Below are positions 1-3,321 of a stretch of 64,000 nucleotides of DNA, one piece after another. The translations under genes were made by a program, and so were the position numbers. Position 1 is the first letter of the stretch. Every line of letters starts with the position of its first letter. The notes under the pieces were generated by a model. It had not been told where the DNA came from and searched no databases. It saw nothing but the letters and a program-made list of their open reading frames with translations. The stretch is from Zhongshania sp. R06B22 (GTDB lineage Bacteria > Pseudomonadota > Gammaproteobacteria > Pseudomonadales > Spongiibacteraceae), in the NCBI RefSeq assembly GCF_040892595.1, contig NZ_JBFRYB010000002.1:248001-312000 (forward strand), given 5' to 3'.

Positions 1-54
1 AGCTTCATTCCATGCTGCGAGCATGTGGTCAAGCGCTTCGGGATAATTGGCCAT
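1..54 (-). CDS. N-terminal fragment of an unknown protein, cut by window edge
   Basis: Eighteen codons, reading MANYPEALDHMLAAWNEA, run from an ATG off the left edge. A strong ribosome binding site (AGGAG, seven bases before the ATG) shows that this is a real gene start. It lies 46 bases downstream of the stop of the lyase-like gene on the same strand, so it is probably the third gene of that operon. The amphipathic start with a Leu-Ala-Ala-Trp-Asn segment resembles the first helix of NTF2/SnoaL-like small proteins, but 18 residues cannot establish a family and I do not assign one. Confidence 0.6.
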   Translation of the reverse strand, partial: MANYPEALDHMLAAWNEA

Positions 55-100
55 TCGTCACTCCTCGTATATCTAGTAAAAATGGGCAGCCGGTCAAGTG

Positions 101-1507
101 TCACCTGCAGGAGTCTTTTGGATGTCTGGTTGGGAACTGCTCCAAACTTTCTTCAAGTAACATTAGCAAGCGGTCGTCCCTCAAGAGTGCAACAGCGTCA
201 GCAGGAGCAGCCGATTCTTTTACTTTCTTAATAAATTTGCTGGGCTCAGCAAAGATGTCAAATTTTTTATCTGCCATTGCAAGCACGTAGGCTTCAAGTA
301 TTGAAATTTCCGAAAAATCTCCTAGAACCTCGATTAGATTCTCAACCTGCCCGACGCCGTGCGTCCAAAGGTCTTCAATGCCATACGAAGTTTGTCCCCC
401 GGATGAGTAGCAACGAGAGCCATATTTTGAACGCATTGCCTCAAGCTTTCCCATCATTAACTTTGGAATTTGAATGAGCCCCAAAGGCGAACCCTGATCG
501 CCTCCATCAATTGGCACGGTCGTGTCACCACTCAAAATGAAAATAACCCTCTGAACCACCGCCCAGGCACAAAACAGAATGGCTTCTATTAACGCCCCGG
601 TTTTTATTGATAGGGTTGGGCAAAAAAAGCTGGCCTGTGAAAGTGGTGCAGGTTCGCCTTCGACGAAGAGTGGATTTCCTGAGGGTTTGAAAATTAGAAG
701 ATTAATCTCACGCATATAGTCTTCGGCAGCAACACAAAAGGCTTCTAACTCCTGTGGTATAGCTCTTATAGAAACTGAACTTTGTTTCTCATGAGAAAAT
801 CCCCTTTTAACAACCTTAGCTCGAACATGTTGCATAACTGAAGCTGGCCACGATCGTTCCGCGTTACTAAAGTAATACAGCTCGCCAACTCGATTAGAGA
901 ATTGAGCGTGTGCAATAGAATTCTCCAGAAAAATCGCAAACGGTATCTCAATATTTTTTACCGAGGCTGCGGCAAGACCAATATGTACAAAAGCTCCGTT
1001 AATCAGCGCCATTGCTGTACCTTGCGGCGTGGGTATGTTCTTATCTCTAAATCTCTCAAATACATTACGAGCCCAATGTGCTGCAGGGATTACATCACCG
1101 CATGAATAAGATGAACCCTTTGGAATGAGAGGATTAAAGTCGGTTCTAACGCATAATTCCTGAAGCTCTCGATAACAACGGGTGTCTATCCCGGTGTAGC
1201 CAGCCGCGAGGGAATAAAGTTTGGCGTAAGATATGCACTTTACTTCAAAGGCACAGTAATTCTCACCATACGAAATCGCATGGGTAGACAATATCTCCGC
1301 ATTAATATCAATGTTTTCGGTACCGAAACCTTCCTCCCCGTCTCTATGGCCCGTAAGCGTGTTTGTGCCGTAAACTCTAAAATTCAGCGTGTTTTGAAAC
1401 TTACTAGCAATCTGAAAATCGCGATGTACACGATCATTCTCGGTCGCCCAAAGAGGTGGTGCTTTAGACGAGGCGGCGTAGTTCAATAAATCAAATAAAG
1501 TCTGCAC
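101..1507 (-). CDS. Divergent aromatic amino acid lyase (HAL/PAL superfamily)-like protein
   Basis: About 468 residues. The superfamily landmarks occur in the right order. VYGTNT at 45-50 matches the Tyr loop (YGxNTGxG). LSTHA at 73-77 matches the (S)HAxGxG helix. GSSYSCGD at 131-138 matches GSxGASGD, which carries the residues that cyclise into the MIO electrophile. MALING at 166-171 matches LALxNG. IRAIPQ at 247-252 matches LRCxPQ. A Glu-Ile-Asn ... Gly-Asn-Pro-Leu block at 267-280 matches ExNxxxDNPL, and a GIED segment near 380 matches the QED site. The usual Ala-Ser-Gly triad reads Ser135-Cys136-Gly137, and the GxFxG loop is poorly kept, so normal histidase or PAL activity is doubtful. 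Start: GTG, because the upstream gene's TAG overlaps it (TAGTG) and AGGAAAG lies just ahead; the longer frame would run back into that gene. Family assignment is fairly sure, substrate unknown. Confidence 0.75.
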   Translation of the reverse strand: MQTLFDLLNYAASSKAPPLWATENDRVHRDFQIASKFQNTLNFRVYGTNTLTGHRDGEEGFGTENIDINAEILSTHAISYGENYCAFEVKCISYAKLYSLAAGYTGIDTRCYRELQELCVRTDFNPLIPKGSSYSCGDVIPAAHWARNVFERFRDKNIPTPQGTAMALINGAFVHIGLAAASVKNIEIPFAIFLENSIAHAQFSNRVGELYYFSNAERSWPASVMQHVRAKVVKRGFSHEKQSSVSIRAIPQELEAFCVAAEDYMREINLLIFKPSGNPLFVEGEPAPLSQASFFCPTLSIKTGALIEAILFCAWAVVQRVIFILSGDTTVPIDGGDQGSPLGLIQIPKLMMGKLEAMRSKYGSRCYSSGGQTSYGIEDLWTHGVGQVENLIEVLGDFSEISILEAYVLAMADKKFDIFAEPSKFIKKVKESAAPADAVALLRDDRLLMLLEESLEQFPTRHPKDSCR

Positions 1508-2883
1508 TATCTTTCCTTTCTCGCGATAGCCACCGCTAATGCACCAATCGCAATAGCTATGGAGTATAAGGATAGGTCTATGGAGGAAATTGAAGGCCAA
1601 TCTGTGAATCCTGGAATTTCGTCTGGAGAAAATGACTGATCACGAGAATACGCAAATAGATTTATACAAAAATCTAAAACCGCAACCCCACCGATTGCAG
1701 CAAGAGAAATTTCAACCATTTTTTCGTTGCGTATATGGCGCCGCTCAATCGCAGCCGAAATATCCTTGTTTAGTAACTCGCGCTTAACCGCAAGCGAGCT
1801 TTTAAGTAAGTCATACTCCCATGTAAAAAATAACGCGGTCGCGACCATTTTTCGATGGCCCTGAAGACCCAGCCATACGTCATTGAACAGGCTTTCTATG
1901 AAGTCTATATGTGAGGCAATCCTCATGTGGCTCGCGTAGTAGGTTTCCCGTTGAGCTTCTTCTGAAACTCTAGATTTTGAAACCATATTCCTCAATGTCG
2001 TATTGATCAGGTCGGCAAGAACGTAAAAATATGTAGCAGTTGATAATGCTGAGCGGAGGGAATGAATTTCGTCCTCTTGCAGCACACCAATCACCAGACT
2101 ATTGCCGATAAAAAAATATGCAGTCGCATCACTGAAATTCACGCCATTTTTTTCATTTACTTTATTCTGTATCCATGATTCTAAAGAAACAACGTCAACG
2201 CGATTTTTATCTATAATCGCAATTCTTGTAACCCACAAGGGTGTCACTGGTGTTAATTCTATTGCCTCATGTTCGAATATCTTAAACGAATCTTTTGCGA
2301 GGAAGCAGGTAACTTCTCCAGCTTGAATTAGCAACTGGATTGCGCGGTCTACCTCTTCGAAGACGCTTGCATTTTTGTTAAGAAAGTCAACGCACAATAA
2401 TGTTGTTAGTTCATCCAGATTTTTCGGCAGAACCTTACTTTCAGTAGGTCGATTATGAACAACGTCTGCTGCCATTTTGAGAATCGCAACTGTATTGTCA
2501 TAAAATTCGACTATGCAATCGTAAACGCGAATGTCGTCATTATTGCCAATTTCAAGAGTTACTGTATCGAAACTTAGGGTAAGGAATGGCTTTGCGCTTG
2601 AAGGAAGACTATCTTCCATAATCGAGCTATATTTCAATTCGGCTAGTGATTTCGAATCTATACTTGAACTTACGGTGATTGATTTTGGCAGGTCTTTCTC
2701 GAGCTTTGCACAAAGAACTTCAATGTCGCGTAAAAAAGTTTGTTCAGCCGCAGTGGCGCGGGCTGTATCTAGGTTTGCAGCCGATCGGAACGGCGCACTT
2801 AGTAACAAAATCGGAGAGTTCATATGCCCAGCGTACCTATAGAGAACTAATAGTTTATTATAAGGGCTCTCGCTCCCTATCAT
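1507..2883 (-). CDS. Unknown protein with soluble body and two C-terminal membrane helices
   Basis: 458 residues that I do not recognise. Residues 1 to about 385 look soluble and mixed alpha/beta. A charged, helix-prone stretch (AAIERRHIRNEK) leads into a first hydrophobic segment around 393-413, a roughly 20-residue acidic/proline loop, and a second hydrophobic segment around 434-453 that ends in basic residues (ARKER). The layout is thus a large cytosolic part anchored by a C-terminal hairpin. CorA-like channels have such an outline, but no GMN motif is present, so this is only a shape comparison. The gene heads the operon; its TAG stop overlaps the GTG start of the lyase-like gene, which implies translational coupling and perhaps a joint function. 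The ATG is preceded by AAGGGG at suitable spacing. Codon use is more AT-rich than the housekeeping genes to the right, hinting at acquisition. Confidence 0.7.
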   Translation of the reverse strand: MIGSESPYNKLLVLYRYAGHMNSPILLLSAPFRSAANLDTARATAAEQTFLRDIEVLCAKLEKDLPKSITVSSSIDSKSLAELKYSSIMEDSLPSSAKPFLTLSFDTVTLEIGNNDDIRVYDCIVEFYDNTVAILKMAADVVHNRPTESKVLPKNLDELTTLLCVDFLNKNASVFEEVDRAIQLLIQAGEVTCFLAKDSFKIFEHEAIELTPVTPLWVTRIAIIDKNRVDVVSLESWIQNKVNEKNGVNFSDATAYFFIGNSLVIGVLQEDEIHSLRSALSTATYFYVLADLINTTLRNMVSKSRVSEEAQRETYYASHMRIASHIDFIESLFNDVWLGLQGHRKMVATALFFTWEYDLLKSSLAVKRELLNKDISAAIERRHIRNEKMVEISLAAIGGVAVLDFCINLFAYSRDQSFSPDEIPGFTDWPSISSIDLSLYSIAIAIGALAVAIARKER

Positions 2884-3321
2884 TTTAGCCCCTTGTCAAA
2901 GTTGGGGGGTAGTATAGGTTAAAAAATTTCAATGAGTTGGCTTCTTTATAATTCACAAGACTCGCTCAAACGAAGACTAATTCCCGCTATTTCTGTCATA
3001 CATTCCTTTCCCCTGATCATATCGCGTTTTTTGTGAATTTCAATGAGTTAAGAAGTATCTCGTCAGGGTATTATTGGGAATGACGCTATTGTTCACATTC
3101 ATCGACGGAGCGGAATTCGCATAGATGCAGGATGTTTAAGTAGCGATATTCGTTGAGGGAAGACCTGTTGCACCAGTGTCGGCTGATTGGGACGGGATTG
3201 TGCAAACCGTTTGTGCTGTCCCCGCGACGATCACTATACTTGCTTGGCGGCGATGGTTATGGTGTTGCCTGTGTTAAATAGCAGCCCGATACGAGCTAGC
3301 ATTCATTATTGAGAGGAAGTT
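2884..3321. other. Gene-less stretch between accessory operon and core genes
   Basis: 438 bases with no convincing gene. It lies between the divergent starts of the accessory operon (left) and the methyltransferase gene (right), so promoters for both are expected here. It contains a 14-base direct repeat (2925-2938 and 3036-3049). A short frame around 3062-3160 has a faint CsrA-like look but lacks a start codon and the conserved N-terminus. I see no tRNA and no terminator. Confidence 0.5.
2925..3049. repeat. 14-base direct repeat pair
   Basis: AATTTCAATGAGTT occurs at 2925-2938 and again at 3036-3049 in the same orientation, 111 bases apart. The copies sit at the edge of the accessory operon. 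They could be a footprint of integration or paired binding sites; only the repeat itself is seen. Confidence 0.6.

Follow-up and report, generated by a model that had tools for sequence, protein, structure and literature searches.

A divergent histidase-fold protein with a Ser-Cys-Gly triad is encoded next to a putative membrane-type protein in a low-GC insertion of Zhongshania sp. R06B22

The window analysed here, a stretch of 64,000 nucleotides from Zhongshania sp. R06B22, begins inside a low-GC insertion that carries the genes for P0001, a protein with a predicted HAL/PAL fold, and for P0002, its upstream partner. The features are as follows.

1-3197, no strand: part within the window of a low-GC insertion of about 3.8 kb in all, delimited by comparison with congeners
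1-54, reverse strand: 5' end of a SnoaL/NTF2-like gene, the third gene of the insertion, which continues outside the window (L002 11692-12054)
101-1507, reverse strand: P0001, predicted HAL/PAL-fold protein of 468 amino acids, GTG start at 1507
773-775, reverse strand: codon of Val246, which replaces HAL Tyr280 in the alignment (Tyr280 located with the help of the Y280F entry 1gkj)
1097-1105, reverse strand: Ser-Cys-Gly triad codons at the MIO position, within GSSYSCGDVIPAAH (1076-1117)
1507-2883, reverse strand: P0002, 458 amino acids with two hydrophobic C-terminal stretches, upstream of P0001 in the same direction and overlapping it at TAGTG

The P0001 frame at 101-1507 on the reverse strand is open and intact. 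Its GTG at 1507 shares one base with the TAG stop of P0002 (TAGTG), and there is an AAGGA sequence about 7 bases 5' of the GTG. Taken together, these suggest that the GTG is the likely start and that the coordinates given in the first-pass annotation are likely those of the gene; an in-frame TTG further upstream, at 1600, is a possible but less likely start. The overlap also suggests that P0001 and P0002 are expressed jointly. Residue numbers of P0001 (Y47, Cys137, N171, Val246, R249 and E379) refer to the protein as translated, with one codon before the start included, so that the residues first described as Ser135-Cys136-Gly137 are 136-138 here. Catalytic positions are given in Pseudomonas putida HAL numbering.

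The insertion is absent from this site in the congeners inspected. Of 17 congeners searched nine were fetched, and in all nine the two flanking genes lie side by side, 199-351 bases apart; they encode a thrombospondin-repeat hydrolase and a methyltransferase. The 18-kb stretches from these nine congeners contain nothing that matches P0001, P0002 or the SnoaL-like gene. DNA similarity resumes at about window position 3198; the left end, whose exact position is uncertain, was placed at the stop codon of the hydrolase gene on that side, some 575 bases ahead of the window. The G+C content of the insertion is 39-47% in 500-base windows, compared with about 50-55% to the left and 45-52% to the right, and GC3 is 0.40 for P0001 and 0.38 for P0002 in comparison with 0.52-0.54 for three neighbouring genes. 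No integrase was recognised among the inserted genes and there are no clear terminal repeats. A direct repeat of 14 bases close to the right edge (L002 14925 and 15036) may be due to chance. At the left edge (L002 11520-11606), a stretch of about 85 bases recurs with 78% identity at C1:1850132 of the same genome, and is perhaps a small repeat element. The SnoaL/NTF2-like gene lies 46 bases downstream of P0001. Its match to SnoaL_2 (E 0.14) is below the cut-off, and most of the plasmid relatives listed for it are annotated as NTF2 family; the best of these (71% identity) is found beside unrelated genes on a plasmid of Agarilytica rhodophyticola.

P0001 had been assigned to the HAL/PAL superfamily from its sequence landmarks, and the profile search bears this out. 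PF00221 matches with E 6.5e-13 and 48.6 bits (cut-off 27.3), residues 25-408 aligning with positions 24-439 of the 466 in the profile. The Tyr loop, GSxxxxGD, LxNG, RxxPQ, NPL and ED are all found as described, and SHA reads THA. P0001 was also said to be far from characterised members, and in agreement with this its best single-sequence match in the PDB, to the probable histidine ammonia-lyase 7tqr, reaches 25 bits. The best NCBIfam matches are HAL models at about 33 bits, which miss the cut-offs of TIGR01225 (539) and NF006871 (524).

An AlphaFold2 model, built on an alignment with 35 natural HAL-like proteins, has a pLDDT of 75.7 and a pTM of 0.81, with pLDDT below 50 at residues 219-222, 228-244 and 460-469. 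The best 50 Foldseek matches of the model consist entirely of ammonia-lyases, aminomutases and ergothionase, and the same holds for the best 39 matches found with VIA-align. In the top ten of Foldseek the TM scores (by query) are 0.72-0.78, most of them 0.76-0.78. The predicted fold is thus of the HAL/PAL type, as the first-pass annotation had supposed, with Z scores of 29-31 to HAL, TAL and aminomutase structures. The match to the aminomutase 3kdz has a Z of 30.9 over 442 residues at 3.2 Å, and that to P. putida HAL (1b8f) a Z of 29.2 over 450 residues at 3.6 Å. The tyrosine and phenylalanine aminomutases 3kdz and 3unv (Z 30.9 and 30.4) and the tyrosine ammonia-lyase 2o6y (Z 29.9) are canonical MIO enzymes that are 15-18% identical to P0001, and P. 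putida HAL follows within 2 Z. The ergothionase of Treponema denticola (6s7j) has the same fold (Z 30.5); it presumably uses a catalytic Lys, and no such residue is seen in the aligned P0001 stretch GSPLGLI, which was aligned to HALs and not to 6s7j itself. Other folds were rejected, fumarase-type chains scoring far lower with a Z of about 15 (VIA-align). Since HALs made up the alignment used for the model, the fold match is not fully independent of homology; the Pfam match is free of this bias.

P0001 shares with HutH (PF00221, TIGR01225; P. putida HAL, 1b8f/1gkm) its fold, the order of the motifs and nine of ten catalytic positions. It differs from P. putida HAL, to which it is 16% identical in the structural alignment, in having SCG for ASG and Val for Tyr280, and from the family TIGR01225 in scoring 33 bits against a cut-off of 539 and in coming from a genome without a urocanase match.

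The placing of the Ser-Cys-Gly triad at the MIO site also stands. The segment GSSYSCGDVIPAAH, at 1076-1117 on the reverse strand, aligns without gaps with HAL motifs of the GSVGACGDLAPLAH type and, in P. putida HAL, with the GASGD stretch, so that the triad is in register with that of HAL. A degenerate pattern of this motif, derived from P0001's own sequence, has one match in the window and none in 100 shuffles. The literal Ala-Ser-Gly triad of MIO-dependent enzymes is absent from P0001. However, literal ASG is an unreliable criterion for exclusion, because Cys is present at the site in at least 66 other full-length histidase-like loci, as set out below.

We compared P0001 with 35 non-redundant Cys-type HALs at ten positions, which we take from HAL work to be the catalytic ones and of which Tyr280 alone had its place checked. 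The equivalents of Tyr53, His83, Asp145, Asn195, Gln277, Arg283, Asn313, Phe329 and Glu414 are retained in P0001, and Tyr280 alone is lost (Val246). Y47, N171, R249 and E379 correspond to Tyr53, Asn195, Arg283 and Glu414, residues common to all 35 HALs. Retention at the catalytic positions (9/10) is higher than at the remaining columns with 90% or more conservation across the 35 HALs (29/66; Fisher P 0.007). The 35 HALs had been picked by the triad motif and the 14 motif columns were therefore left out of a second count, which gave 8/9 against 24/56 (P 0.012). Over all columns conserved at this level, P0001 keeps 39 of 77, or 31 of 63 outside the motif.

The surroundings of these residues are much changed. 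GSVGASGD becomes GSSYSCGD, YGxNTGFG becomes YGTNTLTG, NFHG becomes SFFC and QEDHVSM becomes IEDLWTH. Within the first of these, P0001 has Ser at the Ala142 site and Tyr directly before the triad, where HAL has Gly (as in 25 of 25 ASG loci; in the 35 HALs this Gly was fixed by the selecting motif). As judged from the alignment, P0001 has a conserved catalytic set inside a strongly altered pocket, and its less usual features are the Ser at the Ala142 site, the Tyr for the preceding Gly and the Val for Tyr280.

Cysteine at the MIO serine was the feature on which the first-pass annotation had dwelt. A degenerate DNA pattern, which allowed Ser, Ala, Thr, Gly and some other residues before the Cys, was scanned over the GTDB collection of 84,980 genomes and found at least 119 stretches. 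Among the matches listed (119 GTDB stretches and one viral) there are 120 motif occurrences, of which 76 are of the histidase type GS[VL]GACGD and nine are SCG. At least 66 full-length histidase-like loci from GTDB have ACG for ASG. Going by the titles of their records, these loci are spread over several phyla, and several species of Aliidiomarina are represented. Both the 66 and the non-redundant 35 were chosen by the motif GS[VL]GACGDLxPxAH, so their Ala, Cys and Gly are identical by construction and the sets say nothing about the rarity of SCG. None of the nine SCG occurrences is a HAL, all lying in frames of 169 codons or fewer. One of them, the 81-codon frame of L035, was judged to be chance; it gave a tblastn E of 0.001 in a one-locus search and matches none of the 66 HALs at E 0.001. 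By comparison, ASG is present in all 25 HAL-like loci found by searches with P0001 itself: 19 from among the 45 other matches in the search of 194 relatives, three of three in the class and three new ones in the order.

There is a urocanase gene near at least 21 of the 66 ACG loci, a lower bound since at most 8 kb was examined per locus. The urocanase query was taken from the Aliidiomarina taiwanensis locus (L029), where the gene is directly upstream of an ACG histidase, and it matches all three Pfam urocanase domains. Tyr280 is kept in 26 of the 35 non-redundant proteins, and the other nine have Leu in its place together with Arg at Gln277. The Cys-type (GSVGACGD) histidase-like proteins, such as that of L029, thus resemble P0001 in the Cys and, in nine of 35, in the absence of Tyr280. 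They differ from it in their sequence (17-23% identity), in the Ala before the Cys, for which they had been selected by motif, and in their match to the HAL model NF006871, which is at least 353 bits in the four tested and about 33 bits for P0001.

These natural genes alter the earlier interpretation in part. The superfamily, the SCG site and the lack of a hut context stand, but Cys alone is not what makes P0001 unusual, because it is found at the MIO serine in many natural histidase-like genes. Since at least 21 of the 66 lie near urocanase, formation of MIO from Cys is also more plausible than had been held. The earlier reading had overlooked the Val for Tyr280, the Tyr and Ser before the Cys, the pairing of the gene with P0002 and the genomic insertion. 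The Retey group reportedly found in 1994 that an engineered Ser143Cys HAL was fully active. We found no paper on natural Cys variants of the ammonia-lyase MIO triad ('Ala-Cys-Gly') in the open literature, which was judged mostly by titles. Cysteine, ASG and ACG are absent from the main text, as available, of a review on the origin of MIO enzymes (PMC9002059), and the available part of a paper on new PALs has no mention of cysteine or ASG (PMC5651878). The accessible part of a paper on the Rubrobacter PAL describes the ASG tripeptide as strictly conserved, and reports that changing Ser to Ala at the MIO site costs more than a thousandfold in activity (PMC3903478). The natural occurrence of Cys at the MIO serine in many histidase-like genes, some of them beside urocanase, is in contrast with the ASG described there as 'strictly conserved' (PMC3903478).

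The Cys of P0001 might instead stay a thiol, acting as a nucleophile or ligand in new chemistry on a HAL scaffold in which no MIO is formed. Judging from the alignment, the tight cyclisation could be impeded by the two residues that precede the Cys, Tyr and Ser where HAL has Gly and Ala. We nevertheless consider this improbable, because the presence of Cys-type HAL-like genes next to urocanase suggests tolerance of Cys at a site where MIO is expected, and because P0001 retains the equivalents of Asp145, Asn195 and Phe329, all of which we take to matter for the MIO pocket or for forming MIO.

The genomic context bears on the substrate. P0001 is the sole PF00221 match in its genome, and urocanase (PF01175) was not found there by a search that was positive in five of 14 control genomes; the statement that P0001 is not in a hut context is therefore upheld. 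Of the neighbouring genes that were examined, none was recognised as part of a pathway for the product of an ammonia-lyase. The failure to find urocanase in the genome suggests that P0001 probably does not act on histidine as a nutrient. That P0001 is an ordinary Cys-type histidase that has drifted and still deaminates histidine seems very improbable to us. In favour of this, its top NCBIfam matches are HAL models, and many Cys-type histidase-like genes do lie next to urocanase; against it, the score of 33 bits is far short of the HAL cut-offs (524 and 539), the genome has no urocanase match and Tyr280 is lost.

We searched widely for relatives of P0001. Pattern scans found no close homologue in genome_contigs (47 stretches) or viral_contigs (17 stretches), nor did an alignment of P0001 with HALs in viral_contigs (22 pattern stretches). 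Plasmids gave seven matches at 24-33% identity, six of which are annotated hutH and none of which is a close homologue, and phages gave two matches at E 0.8, annotated hutH. In the genomes of 194 relatives there are matches in 44, including its own, all others being at or below 26.3 bits. Among 369 genomes from the class and 262 from the order (overlapping samples; limit E 1e-5), nothing besides P0001 itself exceeds 28.6 bits, and 17 congeners have no match at E 0.001 anywhere in their genomes. By these comparisons P0001 is an orphan, and the most divergent case met among the searches described here.

The partner, P0002, is no easier to place. Its hydrophobic stretches were read from the sequence by eye, and the description 'membrane-type' refers to that reading. 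It has no Pfam match at E up to 10, no NCBIfam match, no plasmid match at E up to 1 and none in viral_contigs; PHROGs gave a match at E 0.33. AlphaFold2 without an alignment gave a pLDDT of 33, and the P0002 family profile found no relative in the PDB (best E 0.56). The position of the two genes in a low-GC insertion led us to consider an anti-phage defence system. PADLOC yielded no convincing match: there was none for P0001, a weak match of P0002 to a SIR2 model (E 0.0063, 13.7 bits), and none for five P0002 relatives and two of their small partners. We found no related paper in the literature that links an ammonia-lyase to anti-phage defence.

Relatives of P0002 were found within the order. 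In 369 genomes of the class, P0002 and its family profile each recovered P0002 alone, and in 390 genomes of the order there is a match in eight, including its own; two of the seven others are congeners. These seven relatives (L188-L194) are 15-22% identical to P0002 and have twelve invariant columns in common with it. In six of the seven, the next gene downstream has 116-136 codons and lies within 26 bases or overlaps slightly. The six small proteins are related to one another, with 24 of 136 columns invariant, and none of them matches P0001 at E 1. Among all frames of at least 80 codons in the seven stretches (12-19 kb), the best match to P0001 has E 0.045 and 2.9 bits. It appears from these loci that the usual small partner is not beside P0002 in the window and that the HAL-fold P0001 stands in its place; this is one case and could be coincidence.

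The arrangement is consistent with an alternative role for P0001, that of a non-catalytic scaffold: a HAL-type fold without lyase chemistry that would serve P0002 as a soluble partner or ligand-binding subunit, for example by binding an amino acid without turnover. Its gene overlaps that of the membrane-type P0002, whose relatives have another small gene downstream in six of seven loci, and the gene that follows in the seventh weakly matches SBP_bac_3 (20.8 bits, cut-off 26.4). The loss of Tyr280, the altered MIO surroundings and the lack of recognised pathway genes nearby point the same way. However, retention of nine of ten catalytic positions is above expectation for a relaxed active site, and the equivalents of Tyr53 and Glu414 are not obviously needed for mere ligand binding. 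We regard a scaffold role as less likely than the enzyme reading that follows, but as a strong rival to it.

The reading that we prefer, while holding the case for and against it to be about evenly balanced, is that P0001 is a very divergent and possibly MIO-forming enzyme of the lyase or mutase type that works with P0002 as an accessory membrane-type protein. It is favoured by the PF00221 match above the cut-off, the fold match, the nine catalytic positions, the TAGTG overlap and the similar low GC3 of the pair, and also by the natural precedents for Cys (at least 66 loci) and for Cys without Tyr280 (9/35). The loss of Tyr280, the altered MIO surroundings, the retention of no more than 39 of 77 conserved columns and the lack of recognised pathway genes are against it. 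Such an enzyme would keep the homotetrameric helical core, and its Ser-Cys-Gly loop would cyclise to MIO with loss of H2S from the Cys rather than of water. The MIO would then act on the α-amino group of a small amino-acid-like substrate, the Tyr53 equivalent serving as the base, with elimination or 2,3-migration of the amine. P0001 would work next to the membrane with P0002, as the cargo of an accessory insertion.

P0001 is an unusual member of a known superfamily and not a new kind of protein. What is unusual is the combination of SCG, the lack of Tyr280, the orphan sequence and the overlap with a membrane-type gene in an insertion. More tentatively, a histidase-type fold may have been recruited into a two-gene membrane module in place of the usual small partner, either with MIO formed from SCG without Tyr280 and a new amine chemistry, or as an amino-acid sensor with a preserved pocket; we think this conceivable, with the balance somewhat against it. 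P0001 raises the questions of whether nature builds MIO from Cys and whether a HAL fold can work, or be reused, without Tyr280.

Two observations were made on the Cys-type proteins themselves. The nine with Leu280, Arg277 and GSVGACGD (L025, L031, L048, L050, L063, L065, L083, L088 and L128) have the sequence RLRDxLSLRC or nearly so. There is a urocanase gene near at least four of them (L048, L063, L065 and L128), and against the HAL subfamily cut-off of 524 bits L048 scores 546 and L025 523. From their sequences, this group may be a distinct enzyme class that is annotated as HAL. Finally, an elusimicrobial Cys-type HAL-like protein (L040, 758-2200) has 354 bits against the same cut-off, and is the best phmmer match of P0001 among the 66 at 42.6 bits.
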